From a virus: a stretch of 29,480 nucleotides of DNA. How positions within the stretch are numbered: position 1 is the stretch's first letter; every line of letters starts with the position of its first letter. The translations under genes and the position numbers were made by a program. The stretch spans positions 1-29,480 of the IMG/VR virus record IMGVR_UViG_3300027782_000272; one strand, 5' to 3'. The notes under the pieces were generated by a model. The model was given only the letters and a program-made list of their open reading frames with translations, ran no database searches and was not told the origin of the DNA. Shown piece by piece: positions 4,108 through 29,298 of this stretch.

Positions 4108-4111
<4 letters not shown>
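3959..4111 (-). CDS. Small membrane protein, candidate holin
   Basis: A 50-aa protein with two hydrophobic stretches, roughly residues 4-23 ([19 protein letters not shown]) and 29-45 (Ala/Val/Gly-rich), and a short charged tail (KAADAK). Small two-pass proteins of this type ahead of a cell-wall enzyme are common class II holins. Coupled by ATGA to the gene before (4108-4111) and after (3959-3962). Identity as the holin is inferred from size, topology and position. Confidence 0.55.
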
Positions 4112-4626
<515 letters not shown>

Positions 4627-14320: not shown

Positions 14321-14896
14321 TTAAACTCTAACAGATTCGGGGGCCGCTGTCAATGCGGCGTCATGCCGGTAAGTGCAAAGCGTTTTGTCAATGTGCAGCG
14401 ATGTTTTAATTCTTGCCCGAGCTTGTCTAGACCAGATAATATCCTCGCCGTAATTAGATTCTCCAAACTGGCAGGTTTTGACTAGTTCCCGTTTCCATAC
14501 GCAAACATGCCACGGCGCTCGAAGCGTAATTCCGTTAGGCTGAAAAGGCTCATCGCAATTATTCAGACCAAAAATGACTTTGGAAAATGCGCCGTTGTAA
14601 TAGCTGTTTTGCTCAAATGTAATTACGTCTGGGCCTTGCTGAATTGCCAACAAGATTTCCGATACGTAATCCGGTTCAATGTCGTCGTCATCGTCCACAA
14701 ATGCAATGTATTCGCCTCGTGCAATGTCTAACAAAGACTGCCGTTTTGCGCCGATTGTTCGCGTGCGGTTGTCAGCAAACGACAAATGCTCAACTGCTAA
14801 ATCATTGCTTTGTTTTGCAATCTTTTCGGACAGCTTTGAGAGTTGCTCTTTTCGGCTTGTAATCGTCGGGGTCAGGATGCTGAGTTGTATGTGCAT
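14321..14896 (-). CDS. GT2-family glycosyltransferase
   Basis: A 191-aa protein with a GT-A fold start (QLSILTPTITSR), then GAKRQSLLDIARGEYIAFVD and the metal-binding run DDDDD (residues about 71-75), followed by a conserved C-terminal acceptor region with GESNYGEDIIW (the ED that acts as base in GT2 enzymes). It uses a nucleotide sugar; the acceptor is unknown. Its first 32 codons overlap the 58-aa gene in another frame; the overlap is needed because the N-terminal beta strand is essential. Lies between capsid and tail genes, so it may glycosylate virion or host surface. Confidence 0.78.
   Translation of the reverse strand: MHIQLSILTPTITSRKEQLSKLSEKIAKQSNDLAVEHLSFADNRTRTIGAKRQSLLDIARGEYIAFVDDDDDIEPDYVSEILLAIQQGPDVITFEQNSYYNGAFSKVIFGLNNCDEPFQPNGITLRAPWHVCVWKRELVKTCQFGESNYGEDIIWSRQARARIKTSLHIDKTLCTYRHDAALTAAPESVRV
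14325..14353 (-). promoter_or_regulatory. Candidate leaderless promoter D (neck-tail genes)
   Basis: Minus strand: TTGACA (14348-14353), 17-base spacer, TAGAGT (14325-14330), then 6 bases to the ATG at 14318. The 13-mer TCTGTTAGAGTTT covering the -10 is identical to that at site B. It overlaps the 3' end of the upstream glycosyltransferase gene, so part of the sequence is also coding. The -10 is a weak match (4 of 6). Confidence 0.5.
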
Positions 14897-14978
14897 ATTT
14901 TCTAAAGATTAAGTCGTAATTCGTTCTGTATTTATCGTGGTTAACCGGTCGTGGTGTGTCTCCTTTTCCTGCGCTCAT
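14802..14978 (-). CDS. Small conserved phage protein (MSxGKGDTPRPV family)
   Basis: A 58-aa protein with the family signature MSAGKGDTPRPVNHDKYRTN followed by YDLIFRK, known from many phage genomes as a hypothetical protein. Function unknown. The start at 14978 overlaps the stop of the 741-aa gene (ATGA at 14975-14978). Its 3' half overlaps the next glycosyltransferase start by 95 bases in another frame, which is long for this window. Confidence 0.75.
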   Translation of the reverse strand: MSAGKGDTPRPVNHDKYRTNYDLIFRKYAHTTQHPDPDDYKPKRATLKAVRKDCKTKQ

Positions 14979-17200
14979 TTCCTTTTCCAGTAGTTGTTGT
15001 GCGTGATAAGCTCCCATGCGTTAGCGTCGGAATGCTCCTTGACCGCTTTTGCCACTTCGCCCCAGGTCCAGTCATGGCCGGAAAAAATACCGTCTGGTTT
15101 AACTTTTGGATACCATGCCGCTAGGTCTTTAACAACCGAATTATAATCGTGCGCGGCGTCAATCCAGATGCCGTTGATTGATCCATTTTCAAATTGCAAT
15201 GCTGCCTCTGCGCTGTCTTGGCAAATGGCGGTAATCATGCCGTCCACTTTGGCCACTTTGATGTTGTCCAGAAATTGATTCAAAATGCTTCCACCATGAT
15301 CGGCGACAATTGCCACATGTGCAGGTTGGTTTTTTTCTCCTTCCCACGTATCAACGCAAATGATTTTGACATTGTTTTTTTCTAAATCCTGCAAGCGTTG
15401 CGCAAGGTAGATAATCGACTTACCAAGCCACGATCCAACTTCAACAAACGTGTCTCCGTCTTTCAATGCCCTTGCAACATTGTCGTAATGGTCGCGGTAG
15501 TCTAGCCATCCGTGGAAGTCTTCGCTAACTGCGATTCCTTGTTCAAATCGTCGCATGGTTCCTTTTCCCATAATGTAACGGTAATCTTCGTTAGACCTAG
15601 CATAGATTGCATCCATTTCACCTTTTCCAAAAATAGGATGCAAATGTTCAAAAATAGTATCTCTAGCTTCAATAACAACTCCGTCATCATATGCTTTTTT
15701 TGTAAAGTAATCGTCGCTGTAAACGCTGAAAAATTCAGGGTGGAACATAAAGCCCTGCTGCTGGTATCGCTTGCGGGTCAGAATAGCCATGCACAACAAG
15801 TTGTCCGTTCGATGCCCGTCGCTGATTGCTAGGACCTTTGACTCGCTAGTGTCACCGATTGCGTCGATGATAATCTGATCCCAATGCATCGGAGGATTCC
15901 AGTCATCGGAAAGCTGGATCAAGATTTCACCTTGCGCTTTCTCTGCCGCTGCGTTCCATGCCGCTACGCTTCCGGCGCTGCCATTTGTAACGACGTGGTT
16001 GTGGACCGCCAATAAAGCGCCGTGCATGTCGTCGCCGTCCAGTCCGAAAATGTGCTCAATTGCGTCGGGGTTTTTAGCTTTGTTAAACCATAGCCGCCGC
16101 GCTTCGACCGCTTGCTTGCATCGGCCCCGTGTGGCGTGGATCAGTGAGATTTTTTTGCCGCTGCGAATGAAATGGTTTGTTTCGATTGCGTCGGCTTGGT
16201 CGTAAAATCCATTTGCGCGCAATGCCATTCCGTGCAGTTGGTAGCCGAGATAGCCGCTGTATTTCCTGCGAACATTCCAGGCGCTCGATCCGCCGTCTTG
16301 AGCCAGCATTGCCGTTGTAATGGCCAGCGCGTCTTTGTTGCGTCCAAGTCCGATGTAGCAAAGGCAAAGCTCACCGTAGGCCTCCTTGCGCGCAGGATCG
16401 ACCGATAGCGCTTGCAGGTTCATTTGCAATCTCATGTCCACGTTGTCGGACATTTGCCCGGCTGCGATGAAAAGCTCGTATTTCTCAGCCGTGCCGATTG
16501 TTGGATCATCGCTTTTTAGCAGGTCGCAAACGACATTTGCCGCGTCGTTAATTCTGCCGACTGCTCGAAGCGACTGGAACAAATGGAATCTATGCGAAGA
16601 TGTCGGATTTTTAATGCTTTCCAAGATTCTCAAATTGCGCTCGTCGTTGCGCTCTCTTGTTCCTTCTGGCCGGTGCAAAATCACCGCGCCGTCCACGCTG
16701 GCTATTTTTGGATCTTCTGAAAATTGCAAAAACTCATGGATTGGCGATGTCCATGCGGCGTGCTTTTTGCGGATGATTCTTTCCCGTTGTACCGTAAGCT
16801 GATCTTCGGGAACGTGATAAGCAAACTGTATGCCGTCGAAATTGTTTGGCATTAAATCAATCGTTTCACGGATGCGCTTAATTGACTCAGGATCAATCAC
16901 GTCGTCAGTGTCGGCCCACATGATAAGTTCATGCGCGGCGTTGTCAAAAGACTGCTGGCGAGCTGCTGCGAAGTTGTCAACGTGCGGCCAAGATGATTTA
17001 CTTGTCTCGTTGAAATACTCAGGTGCGATTTTTGCTCCTAGTCGTTCTGCAATTTCAATCGTTCGGTCTGGCTCTTGATTGCCGATAGCTCGAACAATTA
17101 CGATCTCATCAGCCAGCGGCTTGAAGGATTTAATAAAACGGGCAATGTAGTTTTCCACATTGCCCACGATGACGCATAAACTCAGCTTTTCATTTTTCAT
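14975..17200 (-). CDS. Glycosyltransferase-TPR-glycosyltransferase-methyltransferase fusion
   Basis: A 741-aa protein with four parts. Residues 1-150: GT2 domain starting LSLCVIVGNVENYIARFIKS, with MWADTDD (DTDD at 97-100) as metal site. Residues about 190-345: helical, TPR-like repeats. Residues about 349-550: a second GT-A-like domain beginning ISLIHATRGR, with LDGDD (387-391) and LSDDW (430-434). Residues about 570-741: class I SAM methyltransferase with FVEVGSWLGKS (585-595), CVDTWEGE and IWIDAAHDY (678-686), like Methyltransf_24. It may build and methylate a glycan on virion or host. Placed directly after the capsid gene, separated by a stem-loop. No Shine-Dalgarno. Confidence 0.85.
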   Translation of the reverse strand: MKNEKLSLCVIVGNVENYIARFIKSFKPLADEIVIVRAIGNQEPDRTIEIAERLGAKIAPEYFNETSKSSWPHVDNFAAARQQSFDNAAHELIMWADTDDVIDPESIKRIRETIDLMPNNFDGIQFAYHVPEDQLTVQRERIIRKKHAAWTSPIHEFLQFSEDPKIASVDGAVILHRPEGTRERNDERNLRILESIKNPTSSHRFHLFQSLRAVGRINDAANVVCDLLKSDDPTIGTAEKYELFIAAGQMSDNVDMRLQMNLQALSVDPARKEAYGELCLCYIGLGRNKDALAITTAMLAQDGGSSAWNVRRKYSGYLGYQLHGMALRANGFYDQADAIETNHFIRSGKKISLIHATRGRCKQAVEARRLWFNKAKNPDAIEHIFGLDGDDMHGALLAVHNHVVTNGSAGSVAAWNAAAEKAQGEILIQLSDDWNPPMHWDQIIIDAIGDTSESKVLAISDGHRTDNLLCMAILTRKRYQQQGFMFHPEFFSVYSDDYFTKKAYDDGVVIEARDTIFEHLHPIFGKGEMDAIYARSNEDYRYIMGKGTMRRFEQGIAVSEDFHGWLDYRDHYDNVARALKDGDTFVEVGSWLGKSIIYLAQRLQDLEKNNVKIICVDTWEGEKNQPAHVAIVADHGGSILNQFLDNIKVAKVDGMITAICQDSAEAALQFENGSINGIWIDAAHDYNSVVKDLAAWYPKVKPDGIFSGHDWTWGEVAKAVKEHSDANAWELITHNNYWKRK

Positions 17201-24474: not shown

Positions 24475-24957
24475 TTACATAACCTGCTCCGTTTCATCCA
24501 TTGCAGCGATGATAGACGCAACTTCATTCAATGCTGCGTATTTGCGCCTAAACGCGCCAATATCAATTTTGCATTGCGCCAATAATTGCGCGCGGTATCT
24601 GGAGCTGTTCATGACTTGATCCAAGCTAACATATGCGCCGCGTTCTTCCGTTTCGGTGATGTTCTCGTCGTTTCTGTGCGGTATGACAGTTTCAATTTGT
24701 ACATTGTGCCAAGCCCTGACCGTCACGCATTTGTCCTCGGTGACGTGGTATTGCACTTTAATGCGCCGGATAAGCCCAGCCGCTTGAATTTTGCGGTATT
24801 CGTTCGCCGCGATGGTGTCTTCCCATTGAAAATAGTTGTGCAATGGTGAATTTTTATTTTCGGCATGTTTCAAAACAATTTCAGCCGTGATGCTTCCATG
24901 CTTTGCTGCGATTTTCTCTAGTTCTTCTTTTAGTGTCAATTTCAGTGTTTCAGTCAT
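24475..24957 (-). CDS. Conserved phage protein (SPLHNYFQWEDTIAANEYR family)
   Basis: A 160-aa protein. The N-terminal segment GSITAEIVLKHAENKNSPLH followed by NYFQWEDTIAANEYR and then IRRIKVQYHV matches a family frequently seen in phages (S-P-L-H-x-x-F-x-W-D-D, A-A-x-x-Y-R). Function unknown; the C-terminal helix is rich in Ala and Gln. Start at 24957 is chosen over one at 24993, which would overlap the upstream gene and lacks the A/C-rich leader seen here (AACACAAACAATACAAAAT). Confidence 0.75.
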   Translation of the reverse strand: MTETLKLTLKEELEKIAAKHGSITAEIVLKHAENKNSPLHNYFQWEDTIAANEYRKIQAAGLIRRIKVQYHVTEDKCVTVRAWHNVQIETVIPHRNDENITETEERGAYVSLDQVMNSSRYRAQLLAQCKIDIGAFRRKYAALNEVASIIAAMDETEQVM

Positions 24958-24974
24958 ATTTTGTATTGTTTGTG

Positions 24975-25280
24975 TTAAAAAATTACTGGCCATTTATACC
25001 CCGCTCTCCAGTCGCGGTTTGTGCTATGCGTTTCCTGCCTTGCCGCGCCTCGCCGAGCCGCGCCGTGCCTCGCCTGCCTTGCCAAGCCGCGCCTCGCCGG
25101 GCCTAGCCTCGCCTGCGTTGCCACGCCGAGCCTAGCCTTGCCGTGCCCGGCCTTGCCATGCCACGCCTGCGTTGCCTCGCCTTGCCACGCCGGGCGCATC
25201 CTAGCCTGCCTTGCCTTGCCCTGCCCAGCCTTGCCCTGCCCAGCCTGCGTTGCAATTTGTGCTTGTGCTTGTGCTTGCAT
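24975..25280 (-). CDS. Low-complexity basic protein encoded by the GCCNN array
   Basis: A 101-aa ORF. It starts MQAQAQAQIATQAGQGKAG, continues as Ala/Gly/Arg/Lys/Gln pseudo-repeats of five residues (GKAGQ, GKARQ and so on; the 5-base unit repeats in phase every five codons) and ends with an ordinary tail, NRDWRAGYKWPVIF, and a stop 17 bases before the next ATG. The normal tail and the gap-free fit support translation, but such arrays keep several frames open by chance. If made, it is very basic and would bind nucleic acid. A longer reading from a TTG at 25325 overlaps the preceding stop. Confidence 0.4.
   Translation of the reverse strand: MQAQAQAQIATQAGQGKAGQGKARQARMRPAWQGEATQAWHGKAGHGKARLGVATQARLGPARRGLARQARHGAARRGAARQETHSTNRDWRAGYKWPVIF
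25031..25252. repeat. Degenerate pentanucleotide array (GCCNN)n
   Basis: About 220 bases made almost entirely of 5-base units GCCNN on plus (GGCNN on minus), with NN varied and a few 4- or 9-base irregular units. The segment GCCTGCGTT recurs at 25111-25119, 25165-25173 and 25243-25251. It has far more C on plus than the surroundings. A short GCTTGT-type hexanucleotide run follows at 25258-25279. It is unlike any other part of the window except the Pro-Glu tract. Confidence 0.92.
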
Positions 25281-25288
25281 TGTCGTTT

Positions 25289-25310
25289 CCCGCTGATTAC
25301 CCGCAGCGGG
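25289..25310. promoter_or_regulatory. Stem-loop upstream of the repeat ORF
   Basis: Inverted repeat CCCGCTG (25289-25295) and CAGCGGG (25304-25310) with an 8-base loop, 9 bases before the ATG at 25280. A longer alternative pairing (TTTCCCG with CGGGAAA, 25286-25292 and 25312-25318) competes. No T run follows, so it may be a translational control hairpin rather than a terminator. Confidence 0.55.
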
Positions 25311-25321
25311 ACGGGAAATTG

Positions 25322-25957
25322 TCAATCTAGTCGAAATGTCCCCCAGCCCATTCCTGCGCTCATCTTGCTGTCTGGCCTGCCCTCGCCAATTCCGACTTGC
25401 GCGCCGACTCTTGTCATTAGGTTTGCGGCGTCTGTTGCGCTGAACTGGTCTGCGTCGTATTGAACTTTAACCATTGCCGACCACGGCCAAAATTTAGCTC
25501 GAACGCGCAAATCGCAAACGCCGGTCGCATTGCGAGCGTGCATAAGATGCGGTTCTGGTTTGCCGTCAATTTTGATCAATGGCACGCCGTCCACTTTATC
25601 GAATCCGTCCGGCAAAATAAACACTGACATTTTGGCTAGCGTCATTTTAAATCCGACCAATCTGCAAGCCGAGATCATTGCGTTTCTGAATGCCGATGCC
25701 GGGATGCCGTTAAATCCGCAATCGCTGACGTGTTGCGCTTGCCGAAAGTCCTCATCGAAGTCGCGCGCTTCTTTTGCTTTTTTCTTGTTGGCTTGGCTTC
25801 CGGCTTCGTGCTTTGCTTTCATCGCATTGATTGCTTTTTCCGAAAAGCGCAACTGAATGTATGGCGCCGTGCCTATTATTTTAAACTCAGCGGTATGGAT
25901 TTTTGGCGCTGTAATTTGCACCGTTTCTACATTATTTTTTTCATCTGTTTTTTTCAT
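25322..25957 (-). CDS. Unrecognised 211-aa phage protein (possible RAMP-like fold)
   Basis: A 211-aa protein. Beta segments early (AEFKIIGTAPYIQLRF), a Lys-rich linker (residues about 48-62), then GIPASAFRNAMISACRLVGF, strand-helix elements, and a C-terminal Gly-rich loop QVGIGEGRPDSKMSAGMGWG. The helix-then-strand order with a late Gly loop recalls RAMP/Cas7-like RNA-binding proteins, but no catalytic residues can be named and the match is only impressionistic. It starts after a 44-base CA-rich leader with no Shine-Dalgarno and is followed by the repeat ORF. Confidence 0.6.
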   Translation of the reverse strand: MKKTDEKNNVETVQITAPKIHTAEFKIIGTAPYIQLRFSEKAINAMKAKHEAGSQANKKKAKEARDFDEDFRQAQHVSDCGFNGIPASAFRNAMISACRLVGFKMTLAKMSVFILPDGFDKVDGVPLIKIDGKPEPHLMHARNATGVCDLRVRAKFWPWSAMVKVQYDADQFSATDAANLMTRVGAQVGIGEGRPDSKMSAGMGWGTFRLD

Positions 25958-26001
25958 ATTCTGTCTGTGTTTGTGTGTGTTTGTGTTTGTCTTAAAAAAT
26001 C

Positions 26002-26166
26002 CTATAAATCCTCGATATAATCCGCCAATTCCCTCAGCGTCCCGAAAAAGTCCGTAGCCAAATAATCCTGATCCAGCGCCGACATAAGCTGATAATGCCC
26101 AGCCTCGATGCGAACGATCGCAATGCCTTTGTTCAAGGCTTGGATAATTAGAGCTTTGTAGGTCAT
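26002..26166 (-). CDS. Hypothetical 54-aa protein
   Basis: A 54-aa ORF (MTYKALIIQALNKGIAIVRI...), alpha-beta in pattern, ending in an acidic helix (ELADYIEDL). It starts 6 bases after a TAAGAT box (promoter F), fits the gap exactly and heads the following operon. Not recognised. Confidence 0.6.
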   Translation of the reverse strand: MTYKALIIQALNKGIAIVRIEAGHYQLMSALDQDYLATDFFGTLRELADYIEDL

Positions 26167-26175
26167 GCGTGTATC

Positions 26176-26213
26176 TTACTATCTCTTTGATACTTGTAAA
26201 TATATTTTTTCAA
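26176..26213 (-). promoter_or_regulatory. Candidate promoter F with A-rich element and inverted repeat
   Basis: Minus strand: the 26-base A-rich element (26188-26213; TTGAAAAAA, ATATTTAC, TATCA) shared with 1602-1627. TTTACA in it serves as -35, then 16 bases, TAAGAT as -10 ending at about 26173, then 6 bases to the ATG at 26166. A small inverted repeat GTATC / GATAC (13-base spacer) lies in the spacer. The geometry again predicts a leaderless mRNA. The element overlaps the stop of the upstream gene. Confidence 0.55.
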
Positions 26214-26485
26214 TTATTTTCATCCGGCCTGATCCCGGTTAATTTAGCCAAGACCGCCGCGATCTGCTGTGCTTGCCCGACCTTAGCCACGTTGTGCATA
26301 ACGCTGGCGTGATTGACATGGAACACGTCGGCAATGCGCTGCAAGGCCCATCCGGACTGTCTAAGCATGTATTGGGCCAAAGCGCGCGCATCGGCGATGT
26401 GTTGGATACGCGACTGACCCATGATCTGCTCGGGCGTGCAGCTCATTTCGGTTGCGATTGTTTCGATTAGTGTTTTCGTTTTCAT
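26210..26485 (-). CDS. Stand-alone DnaA domain IV-like DNA-binding protein (2)
   Basis: A 91-aa protein nearly all of which is DnaA domain IV-like: CTPEQIMGQSRIQHIADARA, LAQYMLRQSGWALQRIADVF and NHASVMHNVAKVGQ. The last piece matches the D-H-T-T-V-L-H-A recognition block of DnaA (N-H-A-S-V-M-H-N). There is no ATPase domain. It can be expected to bind DnaA-box-like DNA, perhaps competing with host DnaA or acting as a phage regulator. Start overlaps the preceding stop (ATGA at 26482-26485). Confidence 0.7.
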   Translation of the reverse strand: MKTKTLIETIATEMSCTPEQIMGQSRIQHIADARALAQYMLRQSGWALQRIADVFHVNHASVMHNVAKVGQAQQIAAVLAKLTGIRPDENN

Positions 26486-26775
26486 GTTTGGTTGTCCTGT
26501 GCTGGGGTGTTCTGCTGAATTATTTCACCGAGGTTCCAAGCCGCCCTTGCTAAAGAACACTCTGGTTCATGTCCTTTCGAGCAATGACCATAGCATACGA
26601 TGCACCGAGATTCTTTCTCGTTACCTTTCCATTCGACTTCTCGCAAGACATCGCGAGCAAGAATCAATGCAGAACAAGGCGCAGAAGCCAATGACCTCAG
26701 TCGGTCGTGTATCCACCATCTCAGGTCGGCGGGAGCGTTGGCGTTGATCCAGTCTGTTGCTTGTTTGTCGGTCAT
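26482..26775 (-). CDS. Small Cys-rich protein
   Basis: A 97-aa protein. It has an N-terminal helix (ATDWINANAPADLRWWIHDR) and then CIVCYGHCSKGHEPECSLAR, which has a C-x-x-C-x-x-x-C...C cluster able to bind zinc. Unknown family. ATGA overlaps on both sides. Confidence 0.65.
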   Translation of the reverse strand: MTDKQATDWINANAPADLRWWIHDRLRSLASAPCSALILARDVLREVEWKGNEKESRCIVCYGHCSKGHEPECSLARAAWNLGEIIQQNTPAQDNQT

Positions 26776-27140
26776 GGCTTTGTCGCGTTGATGATGGACT
26801 CCAAGTAGAGCAACGTCCGTTCCTCGTCGGCAGGATCAAAGCTCACGTCAAGTATTGCAAAGCTTTGTGGGTTTTCGCGGAAGTGGTAGAGTTCCACGCT
26901 TCCTCGCATCGTCGCAGTCACAGGACGAGTGCTATGGTTGAAAAGCGGCCAGTAAGCGCACTTCTCAATCGTCCACTTGGTATTTCTAACTAGTCTTCGG
27001 AGTGCTACGCGTAACCGCTTGCTGTCCTCCTTATTGTTGGTTTCGATGGCCGTTTTTATGCAAGCCCTGCGATTCAACTTCTTCCAGTCGTCGTTAATGA
27101 GTTCGGTGTATTCTTCAAGCAGTTGTTGGTCTGTTTTCAT
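26772..27140 (-). CDS. Hypothetical 122-aa protein
   Basis: A 122-aa protein. Helical first half with many basic residues (LRVALRRLVRNTKWTIEKC), then a beta part (FAILDVSFDPADEERTLLYL). No motif recognised. It begins inside the 3' end of the small upstream ORF and its stop overlaps the next start (ATGA at 26772-26775). Confidence 0.6.
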   Translation of the reverse strand: MKTDQQLLEEYTELINDDWKKLNRRACIKTAIETNNKEDSKRLRVALRRLVRNTKWTIEKCAYWPLFNHSTRPVTATMRGSVELYHFRENPQSFAILDVSFDPADEERTLLYLESIINATKP

Positions 27141-27225
27141 AGTTTTGGGGTAATTCGGGCTGATTCAGAGAACAATTTGTGAGAGGCAAAGCCGAGGAAG
27201 TCTTTTTTGTTTTTCGGGCTTTCAT
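27115..27225 (-). CDS. Hypothetical 36-aa micro-gene
   Basis: A 36-aa ORF (MKARKTKKTSSALPLTNCSL...) starting at an ATG that overlaps the previous stop (ATGA at 27222-27225) and filling the 81-base gap before the next gene, whose 5' end it overlaps by 26 bases. The perfect ATGA fit favours it; the low-complexity sequence and the overlap count against it. Confidence 0.35.
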   Translation of the reverse strand: MKARKTKKTSSALPLTNCSLNQPELPQNYENRPTTA

Positions 27226-27728
27226 GGTTGGCGTGGCTCCACATTGACGTTCGGCAGAGAATTGATGTGATCCGCTACCTCTTGAGATGTTCCTCGAATG
27301 TCCTGCTTTTCGCGTTTGTCGTTGTAATATGTGACTTGGCACATCCGATCCATGCAGCCAATCGTGAGGCGCACGGTTCCAAAATAAGATTGCCGAACAA
27401 GTCGCGGCAGATCAACCTCCGTCGGCGGGGTCTGTGCTATTGCGTTCGTCCAATAGCCTCTTACTTCCTCATCCCATCGTCGCAGGAAACTATCTTCGCC
27501 ATCATCCCCGCTCAATAGCCAGTCCACCCGTTGCGCCATTTCTTGCGCTTGTCTGAGCGTGTGCGCTGCCTCCTTGAACTTTTCGATGATTGCCGGCGGG
27601 TATTTGTTACCTTTTTTCCCGCCCCACTCGTTTGGTGTTTGGTCATTGTTGCTTTCAATGACTTCATCTATTTCGACTGCGATGTCATTAATTCGGTATT
27701 GCGCGTAGTTAAAATGTCCTCCACTCAT
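27222..27728 (-). CDS. MSGGHFNY-family phage protein
   Basis: A 168-aa protein beginning MSGGHFNYAQYRINDIAVEI, the signature of a family common in phages. It is helical with IIEKFKEAAHTLRQAQEMAQ and DEEVRGYWTNAIAQ. Function unknown. The start at 27728 is chosen because the family signature begins there; an earlier ATG at 27788 is in frame but lies inside the 45-aa gene. Confidence 0.8.
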   Translation of the reverse strand: MSGGHFNYAQYRINDIAVEIDEVIESNNDQTPNEWGGKKGNKYPPAIIEKFKEAAHTLRQAQEMAQRVDWLLSGDDGEDSFLRRWDEEVRGYWTNAIAQTPPTEVDLPRLVRQSYFGTVRLTIGCMDRMCQVTYYNDKREKQDIRGTSQEVADHINSLPNVNVEPRQP

Positions 27729-27729
27729 A

Positions 27730-27867
27730 TTATTCAGTTTCGTTTTGGTTGCAATCATCCCCATCATAATCATCCCGCTCCGCCTCATCGTCCCCGATGC
27801 ATAATGGGCAGGTTGTGGTCGAGCTGGGCCAGTTGGTGCTTCCGCAGATGTGGCAGGGTGATTTCAT
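27730..27867 (-). CDS. Small zinc-ribbon-like protein (45 aa)
   Basis: A 45-aa protein with two C-x-x-C knuckles (CHIC at residues 5-8 and CPLC at 20-23) and an acidic tail (DDEAERDDYDGDDC). A minimal zinc ribbon. The ATG overlaps the preceding stop (ATGA at 27864-27867) and its TAA is one base before the next start. Exact fit with no gap makes it convincing. Possible DNA, RNA or protein-binding adaptor. Confidence 0.72.
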   Translation of the reverse strand: MKSPCHICGSTNWPSSTTTCPLCIGDDEAERDDYDGDDCNQNETE

Positions 27868-28247
27868 TTCGGTTCGGGTTGGGTTAGGGTTAGGGATTTG
27901 AGGGCCATCTTGGCAATACCCTCCATGCGTCCAAGCTCGTAGGCGTAATCTGTTTCGGGTAGGTCTTGCACATTGTTATTGGCAATCCGATTCAAAACCC
28001 CAGCTAGCCTGTCCCGCTGCTCCAAAGTAATCTCAAACTTTTGTGCAAGCTCATTGTTATAGGCATCGCCTGATTTGAGTGTTTCCTTGTGTTGGTTGAG
28101 CATCAGTTCAAGATTCATAATCCTTTTCGCTGGTTCTTCGTATCCAGTTCCAAGGCAGTCGGGACAATCGTAGTCGTGTCCTTGGTGGTGGGCATCCCCC
28201 GTCCCGTTGCATTCTTCACAGGGTTTTAGTTTAAATAATTCACTCAT
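27864..28247 (-). CDS. DnaJ-type zinc-finger/coiled-coil protein
   Basis: A 127-aa protein. The first 35 residues hold CEECNGTG and CPDCLGTG, repeats of the DnaJ Cys-rich type (C-x-x-C-x-G-x-G) that bind one zinc. A long helix follows (LMLNQHKETLKSG..., EQRDRLAGVLNRIAN) and the end is SLTLTQPEPK. The helix and end are shared with the next gene (28244-28579). No J-domain. ATGA overlaps on both sides. Confidence 0.7.
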   Translation of the reverse strand: MSELFKLKPCEECNGTGDAHHQGHDYDCPDCLGTGYEEPAKRIMNLELMLNQHKETLKSGDAYNNELAQKFEITLEQRDRLAGVLNRIANNNVQDLPETDYAYELGRMEGIAKMALKSLTLTQPEPK

Positions 28248-28579
28248 GGCTTTAGGGTTAGGGATTGGAGTGCTTCGTTGGCAATAGTTCTAACTGCATC
28301 CATGCGGTCTGGCAGTGTAATTACCCAATCGCAATCAGCTAGTTTCCGCAAAGCCTCAGCCATCCTGTCCCGCTGCTCGGTCATGGCGGTTAGTTCTAAT
28401 TGCACCTTTTTCGCATAATCCCAGATTGTCCCGTTCGGGTCCATCATCTCGCAGCCAAGGTCCTTGTTTTGCTGGATGTATTTCGCTTTCCATTCGTCCC
28501 GCTGCTTGGTGACGGCAATAAGTCTTTCGTTAATTTGAAGAATGCTGCGTGCTGCGGCTATAAGGTCAGAATAATTCAT
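28244..28579 (-). CDS. Coiled-coil protein related to the adjacent zinc-finger protein
   Basis: A 111-aa helical protein starting MNYSDLIAAARSILQ, with two Q-R-D repeats (TKQRDEWKAKY and TEQRDRMAEALRKLAD) and an end ALQSLTLKP. The helix and the end match the downstream neighbour, so the two look like a duplication. Start at 28579 is chosen for the leader AACCAAACCGAATAAACAAA, which resembles the one before the ATPase. Function unknown. Confidence 0.65.
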   Translation of the reverse strand: MNYSDLIAAARSILQINERLIAVTKQRDEWKAKYIQQNKDLGCEMMDPNGTIWDYAKKVQLELTAMTEQRDRMAEALRKLADCDWVITLPDRMDAVRTIANEALQSLTLKP

Positions 28580-28584
28580 TTTGT

Positions 28585-29298
28585 TTATTCGGTTTGGTTT
28601 AATGTTTTTCTGTAGCTGGCCCAGTTGCACTCGATCCCGCCGCCAGTCTCCCTGATCCGGCTGATTATGCTCGGACTGAGCTGTGCGGCGAAGTCCTGCC
28701 TGGTCACGTTTGTGATGAGCATGGTCGGGAGCATTGCGTCGTATCGTTTGTCCATGATGTGGGTTAATTTATCGTCTTCGTATTTTGTTTCTCCGCGGAC
28801 GTGCGCTTCGTCGATCACAAGAAACGCCGCTGATGACAACTTGTCAATAATATATTTTTCGCTTTTTTCCTTCGGCCGGCCGTAACCGTTTTTCAGGTCG
28901 ATGAAAATCTCCATCGCTTTGCAGTAAATCGCCGGGCGGTATTCCGGATGTGATTGCATCGCCCATTCCTTACGCGGCTTCTCCGAGTTCGGGAATCTGG
29001 CGTGCTTAGACAGTTCACACGCTAGCTGGGTCTTGCCGGTTCCGCGCCGACCGTATGCGATTACGATCCCGCCCGATTCGACTATATCCAGCGCCGTCTG
29101 ATACGCTGTTTGCCATTCGTAGCCGTACAATTCGTCAGGATGCTCATGACGGGCAGGAAAGCCAATTCTGGGAACGGTATAGCCAATCGGCGTTGAAACG
29201 GTCGTGGCGGGGGTGTGTGGCGCTGGTTTGCGTATTACTAGGTCGTCTAGGTCTGGCATTGATCCCATTATTTTTGATAATGCTGTGTTTGTGTTCAT
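28585..29298 (-). CDS. DnaC/IstB-like AAA+ ATPase (helicase-loader type)
   Basis: A 237-aa protein. Walker A GRRGTGKT at residues 83-90, Walker B FLVIDEAH at 159-166, a sensor-like TMLITNVTRQDF and an Arg-finger-like region ISRIRETGGG at the end. This is the DnaC/IstB type AAA+ core, used by phages to load the replicative helicase. N-terminal 50 residues are disordered and Pro-rich. The start is preceded by an A/C-rich leader without a Shine-Dalgarno. It indicates a DNA-replication module to the right. Confidence 0.85.
   Translation of the reverse strand: MNTNTALSKIMGSMPDLDDLVIRKPAPHTPATTVSTPIGYTVPRIGFPARHEHPDELYGYEWQTAYQTALDIVESGGIVIAYGRRGTGKTQLACELSKHARFPNSEKPRKEWAMQSHPEYRPAIYCKAMEIFIDLKNGYGRPKEKSEKYIIDKLSSAAFLVIDEAHVRGETKYEDDKLTHIMDKRYDAMLPTMLITNVTRQDFAAQLSPSIISRIRETGGGIECNWASYRKTLNQTE

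Follow-up and report, generated by a model that had tools for sequence, protein, structure and literature searches.

A virus locus with a Cas7-like RAMP gene and an adjoining GGC/NN array: very probably a phage VIPR system, with a reading frame that may be translated through its guides

Our analysis concerns a virus record of 29480 bases (the window), which may be a fragment, and within it a stretch of minus-strand DNA in which a gene for a RAMP protein, an array of GGC triplets separated by variable dinucleotides and a probable accessory gene follow one another (Table 1). A preliminary description of this DNA had reported an array of GCCNN units, which is GGC on the minus strand, with an open reading frame running through it, and both are real. 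Between 24975 and 25330 there are 40 GGC triplets, 39 of which belong to the array; 33 of the 39 GGC-to-GGC gaps in this interval measure exactly 5 bases, and the remaining gaps measure 4 (twice), 9 (twice), 15 (once) and 48 bases (once, at the exit from the array). The longest unbroken run at exact spacing holds 10 GGC, a length that none of 2000 mononucleotide shuffles approached beyond 5, and 13 of the 16 possible dinucleotides are used as NN over the 33 units of the array. While the period of 5 was correctly described, the array is not a plain pentanucleotide run. It consists of five blocks (39, 39, 54, 39 and about 39 nt, with 7, 7, 10, 7 and 7 NN respectively), and the closing unit of every block has 4 bases (GGCAA-GGCA or GGCAA-CGCA, followed by GGC). 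Because the block starts are offset by multiples of 3, the translation displays an amino-acid repeat of 13 or 18 residues. The reading frame through the array terminates near the point where the following gene begins.

Table 1 Features of the array locus in the window
Feature	Position	Strand	Basis or remark
vipr, Cas7/Csm3-like RAMP protein, 211 aa, phrog_4652	25322..25957	minus	profile, AlphaFold2, Foldseek, VIA-align
Array ORF, 116 codons	24975..25325	minus	TTG start overlapping the vipr TGA stop; leader frame open in the clade
Leader hairpin, 3' of the vipr stop and ahead of guide block 1	25289..25310	minus	predicted fold
vrRNA guide array, (GGCNN)n, five blocks	25037..25245	minus	GGC spacing; arrays in 24/24 relatives
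Guide blocks 1-5	25245-25207, 25206-25168, 25167-25114, 25113-25075, 25074-25036	minus	
vrRNA 3' tail, pseudoknot	24983..25025	minus	covariation, 11 sequences
Pseudoknot stem 1	25017-25014 with 25004-25001	minus	
Pseudoknot stem 2	25012-25008 with 24989-24985	minus	
Probable accessory gene vap, phrog_15946	24475..24993	minus	E 2e-24; relatives favour a start at 24957 over 24993

The protein encoded upstream of the array was identified by profile and by structure. A profile built from 71 family members matched PDB entry 36pp chain D, annotated as "SUSP1 Vipr protein", with an E value of 9.9e-42, while the window protein alone reached an E value of 0.03 against the same chain. The AlphaFold2 model of the window protein has a mean pLDDT of 92.8, and its best Foldseek rows are Csm3/Cas7 structures (E 5.2e-05). 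Alignment of the model with the Csm3 fold by VIA-align gave a Z score of 11.7 over 147 residues with an rmsd of 3.4. Entry 36pp itself was not among the Foldseek or VIA-align rows, the structure library apparently predating its release. A glycine-rich C-terminal loop is conserved in the 71-member alignment of the family.

The preliminary description knew of no named element with this pattern, a statement that no longer holds now that VIPR has been described in a preprint from April 2026 (PMC13142463). As presented in its main text, VIPR is an RNA-guided system of phages, related to CRISPR, with a RAMP protein, Vipr, and vrRNAs, each composed of alternating GGY and NN plus a structured 3' tail and carrying 9 to 16 repeats. 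DNA is recognised by the NN pairs, with one base skipped between pairs. The vrRNAs are located in long intergenic regions beside vipr, and accessory genes (vap1 to vap6) lie in the operon. The same text describes a pseudoknot tail in the SUSP1 clade and a Vipr with RRM core, G-loop and thumb, names "staggered arrays with overlapping vrRNAs", and has RNA binding, transcriptional repression and phage-phage conflict as shown or proposed for VIPR. In our literature search on GGC/NN arrays this preprint alone dealt with the subject, and Rfam gave no gathering-score match in 12 array loci, its matches in the vicinity of the array being at chance level.

The window agrees with that account in its RAMP protein (36pp_D match, Csm3-like fold and G-rich loop), in an RNA whose GGC is fixed while its NN are near-random and differ between close relatives, in a structured 3' tail with a pseudoknot, and in the intergenic position of the guides flanking vipr, which is found in 24/24 relatives. 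With the system of Escherichia phage SUSP1 (VIPR type II in the preprint) it shares a RAMP Vipr, an adjoining (GGY NN)n RNA, hypervariable NN, a structured tail at the 3' end that includes a pseudoknot, a neighbouring gene of probable accessory role and the phage-borne state. This comparison was made on Felixounavirus VpaE1 (L349), a phage of SUSP1 type, whose guides are mostly GGT with one tail per guide, whereas those of the window are GGC and stand as five blocks under one tail. The window further differs from VpaE1 in blocks that are joined by GGCAH-SGCA, in an array placed between vipr and the accessory gene, and in the open frame through its guides. The staggered arrays of the preprint likewise hold several guides per array, a likeness that is drawn by name only. 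The backbone proteins of class 1 CRISPR systems (Csm3 and Cas7) share with Vipr the fold, the glycine-rich C-terminal loop and the expected binding of one subunit per RNA segment; unlike those systems, the window has a single small protein, a 5-nt unit with a gapped code, and no CRISPR repeats. Several observations count against the VIPR reading, among them the fruitless target search and the high-entropy array records without Vipr that are described below. The whole array has 39 GGC, and most of its single blocks, which hold 7 to 10 NN, fall short of the preprint's 9 to 16 repeats; in addition, the accessory protein of the window has no detectable similarity to the vipr neighbour in VpaE1. 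Membership of the locus in VIPR is nonetheless near certain, and we hold with high confidence that a phage VIPR system, with guide array, proposed targeting and tail, is the best explanation of the whole. The basis for this obtained here comprises Vipr homology and fold, the GGC/NN array, NN hypervariability, the covarying tail and gene order.

Relatives of the locus were fetched with the upstream protein (25322-25957) alone and without use of the array, which yielded 24 loci (L124-L147). The preliminary description had named absence of the array from close relatives, or a frame broken in them, as grounds for abandoning it. A (GGCNN)n array occupies the same slot after vipr in 24/24 relatives, and a relative of the downstream gene follows wherever the contig continues (in L125 and L134 the contig end falls inside the array). 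The frame is open in 15 of the 19 arrays tested, and on this check the preliminary description stands. Near-identical flanks are common among these relatives, yet NN content and block number differ. Since block lengths among them are 39, 44, 49 and 54, reading frame and repeat register diverge. A block of 44 or 49 nt moves the codons into another phase; unit register and frame are consequently not kept together, a point on which the earlier account falls short, and the peptide is not the conserved thing. The joint between blocks is conserved as GGCAH-SGCA, as the last NN is AA, AT or AC in 86 of 100 distinct blocks, while the penultimate NN is varied. Stretches shared between arrays start near a joint in 2 of 15 cases and end near one in 6 of 15, compared with 42% for random positions. 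Among the vipr genes in L001-L147, a count that includes 78 loci chosen for possessing an array, the array lies within about 500 bp of vipr for 91/102 and within 3 kb for 102/102.

The end of the open reading frame, which had been taken for a normal-looking protein tail, does lie within the open frame but is in fact the 3' pseudoknot of the vrRNA. In 11 clade sequences, chosen for gap-free alignment from a first alignment that also held seven tails of greater divergence, 98.0% of cells are paired and both sides have changed in 6 of the 9 pairs. The covariation score is 0.614, as compared with 0.139 for shuffled alignments, of which 0/500 reached it, and with no more than 0.067 for slid pairings. 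Other candidate tail types accompany arrays elsewhere. In L019, L093, L107 and L004, minihelices resembling tRNA (an acceptor-like stem and a T-arm with GTTCGA) lie just 3' of the arrays, and ARAGORN called doubtful tRNAs in L093 and L107; these minihelices are possible vrRNA tails or processing sites of tRNA-like form. Another class, a nested CAAAC-hairpin-GTTTG, follows the arrays in L020 (2219-2260), L030, L039 and L087 and recurs between successive arrays.

The gene beyond the tail looks like a VIPR accessory gene. Its family adjoins vipr in 33 loci and is directly downstream in 32. The comparison with relatives suggests that vap would begin at 24957 rather than at 24993, since the pseudoknot covers 24993 and the vap ATG of relatives lies beyond the array end by 56 to 74 bases. 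In the model of the accessory protein, a front resembling a winged helix is combined with a long helix; structural matches are weak, and Foldseek gave no significant match for it.

A scan of DNA alone for eight GGC at spacing 5 returned at least 120 viral stretches. Among 250 distinct chains of at least eight GGC, 239 have an NN entropy of at least 1.8 bits; purines are favoured at the first N, no base is favoured at the second, and TA is under-used, while matches in bacterial genomes are mostly low-entropy microsatellites. Where genes flank the 203 high-entropy viral arrays on both sides, both are sense in 132, both antisense in 10, convergent in 19 and divergent in 3, and the other arrays of this set miss a gene on one or both sides (genes from an amino-acid-scored caller). 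Clustering of the proteins at these pattern-picked loci gave one dominant family, that of the gene upstream of the array in the window. Among the matches listed, this Vipr family is found in 78/120 loci by BLAST and in 85/120 by profile. Divided by entropy, and again among the matches listed, Vipr lies at the locus in 85/114 high-entropy array loci and elsewhere in the record in 3 more, and in 0/6 low-entropy array loci. The other 26 of the 114 high-entropy records, for example L005, L009, L027, L075 and L091, have no Vipr homolog among the matches listed; they may be fragments, carry a more distant Vipr, or hold orphan guide arrays as in satellites. Searching with tblastn, the window protein retrieved 33 phage records and a divergent family member 130. 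Array and Vipr occur as a pair in 5/5 isolated-phage regions inspected (Mycobacterium phages Quico, Clifton and ByChance, Gordonia phage UmaThurman and cyanophage Cy-LDV1). A guide stretch with NN AT TC AT GC TT AG AT TG GC is common to Quico, Clifton and ByChance (L282, L285, L286), whose neighbouring guides differ. A separate tblastn search also brought up pentapeptide-repeat genes from phages of Salmonella and Acinetobacter; of these, Acba_23, the one inspected, is not a GGCNN array.

The open frame through the guides has properties of its own in the window's clade. In 12/20 clade arrays a start codon follows the vipr stop at a distance of 1 base, and in the window it overlaps that stop (13/20 together), and the array-ORF stop overlaps the vap start as ATGA in 6/20 arrays (L129, L132, L135, L145, L146 and L147). 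Counted by frame, stops inside 22 arrays number 29, 5 and 25, the low frame being the leader frame in most. In 17 non-redundant arrays there are 4 leader-frame stops, compared with 17 and 25 in the other frames; pentamer shuffles of the same arrays gave a mean of 15.3, and 0/3000 were as low as 4. The deficit has P values of 0.005 and 0.001 in two separate array sets, figures to be read with the knowledge that the test was framed after the pattern was first seen and that clade arrays share ancestry. Among the 19 arrays tested, a leader-frame stop falls inside the array in L133, L138, L128 and L140, in the last two only 4 nt before the array end. Identical arrays (L136, L139, L142), arrays truncated by the end of their contig (L125, L134) and an array lacking a leader start (L127) had been removed ahead of the frame tests, and L133 and L144 were removed too for the non-redundant run. 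The GGCNN code suits translation, as only NN = TA can give a stop. After removal of duplicate blocks, TA makes up 2/249 NN in the stop-capable phase and 28/520 otherwise (odds ratio 0.14, p 0.001; about 0.02 when multiplied by 16 dinucleotides), in a count that left out L125, L127, L136, L139 and L142 and included L134. In clade arrays and the window, CG was found in 0/249 NN in the stop-capable phase and 12/520 otherwise, a difference (p 0.012) that would not survive correction.

Translation through the array is probable in the window's clade only, and we somewhat favour the fuller reading in which the guide array is also a translated frame: ribosomes would restart at the vipr stop, read the guides and stop at the vap start, thereby limiting guide content, with tandem guides under one tail, GGCAH-SGCA joints and block-wise gain and loss. 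The alternative that the locus is a VIPR array whose open leader frame reflects chance and shared ancestry, with no translation, is unlikely, though it deserves serious weight. It draws on the wider set, where 183/202 other arrays are open compared with a permuted mean of 186.1, so that no open-frame excess appears, and on six independent vipr-array-vap loci, all open (6/6) with 5.3 expected, a comparison without power. It is opposed by the TA depletion in the stop-capable phase, which persists after deduplication, by the P values obtained from two separate array sets, and by the overlap of the array-ORF start and stop with vipr and vap. A true protein gene, with a basic AxxGx-repeat peptide as product and the repeats as protein repeats, is much harder to credit. 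Although the frame is open in the window as well as in the 15 clade arrays mentioned (leader frame), and the annotators of UmaThurman placed a gene over its array, variation falls on the NN that alter amino acids and spares synonymous sites, for instance the third base of GGC codons, the 44- and 49-nt blocks change the residue register, and the 3' end encodes the covarying pseudoknot. The protein-coding repeat was rejected on the grounds that register and frame separate in relatives.

Expansion of a simple pentanucleotide microsatellite by slippage can practically be dismissed. Period-5 GGC arrays do occur in bacterial genomes, but there they are mostly of low entropy, whereas NN entropy in the viral arrays is near its maximum and the association with Vipr is restricted to high-entropy arrays. 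Identical neighbours are not in excess either: adjacent NN are identical in 171/2182 cases in the 239 high-entropy viral chains, compared with an expectation of 160 under pooled composition and of 194 when NN are shuffled within chains. The preliminary description had suggested from variable NN at fixed GCC spacing that simple slippage was not the cause and that selection acts on the spacing, and on both points we concur, its interpretation as a whole being partly supported. Sites of TRAP, an RNA-binding ring, are triplets with two-base spacers and resemble GGCNN, and the targets of diversity-generating retroelements are hypervariable in a manner resembling the NN of the array. On these likenesses a TRAP-like array or a retroelement target might be proposed, as might a CRISPR array; we give these identities almost no credence. 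The partner protein is a RAMP and not TRAP, the 29480-base record, possibly a fragment, contains no reverse transcriptase (RVT_1), and the unit is 5 nt, whereas CRISPR arrays have spacers between direct repeats that measure at least about 20 nt. PADLOC, applied to 10 proteins from 24478-29298, found no cas family and no defence-family match beyond two marginal ones. A TRAP-like site, R-loop or Ig-switch-like pentamers and an RNA polymerase pause tract were dropped on finding the RAMP partner.

Under the VIPR interpretation, the operon would be transcribed on the minus strand into an array RNA of alternating GGC and NN. Subunits of the Cas7-like Vipr might line this RNA, one per 5-nt unit, with GGC held and NN exposed, and the NN pairs would read double-stranded DNA with one base skipped between pairs, as the main text of PMC13142463 has it. 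Each block of about 7 to 10 NN may be a separate guide silencing its own target, the likeliest being a gene of a competing phage. The 3' pseudoknot would be a handle capping the guide RNA. Ribosomes leaving vipr would presumably restart at its stop and translate the guides as far as the accessory gene; were they to do so, in-frame UAG would be selected against.

No natural target was found for any guide searched, and in the pools searched a skip of 1 was no better than other skips. With 9 NN, block 3 of the window had 0 matches in viral_contigs; with 8 NN it had 6, and the skipped base was at codon position 3 in 0/5 of those within called genes. The guide common to L140-L142 had 12 matches, with codon position 3 in 6/10 within called genes, or in 4/8 when two identical pairs were merged, and there was no homologous cluster beyond those pairs. 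Block 4 of the window had no match at up to 1 mismatch in 31 related records. The guide common to the three mycobacteriophages had 2 matches, in DNA of 37% and 49% GC, which we read as chance.

The window is an independent VIPR member recognised from sequence alone, and GGC/NN arrays and Vipr occur together across many phages. Isolates on the laboratory hosts Mycobacterium smegmatis and Gordonia are gained, making VIPR testable there. Two features go beyond what the main text of the preprint states and are possibly new: several guide blocks in tandem that are linked by a short joint and share one tail, and selection that keeps a frame open across the guides. The tandem-block form may already be described among the array forms of the preprint. 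Translation of the array, if it occurs, would bring guide choice, ribosome traffic and ribonucleoprotein assembly into competition on one RNA, a constraint absent from the main text of PMC13142463. Elsewhere on the minus strand of the window, 4108-4626 encodes a protein with a long Pro-Glu-Pro-Gln repeat tail derived from a 12-base tandem repeat (4111-4307), and 26210-26485 a small protein with the C-terminal helix-turn-helix of DnaA (Bac_DnaA_C, E 1.4e-12) and without the remaining DnaA. Two proteins encoded at 14321-17200 on the same strand, close to structural genes, resemble glycosyltransferases by eye.
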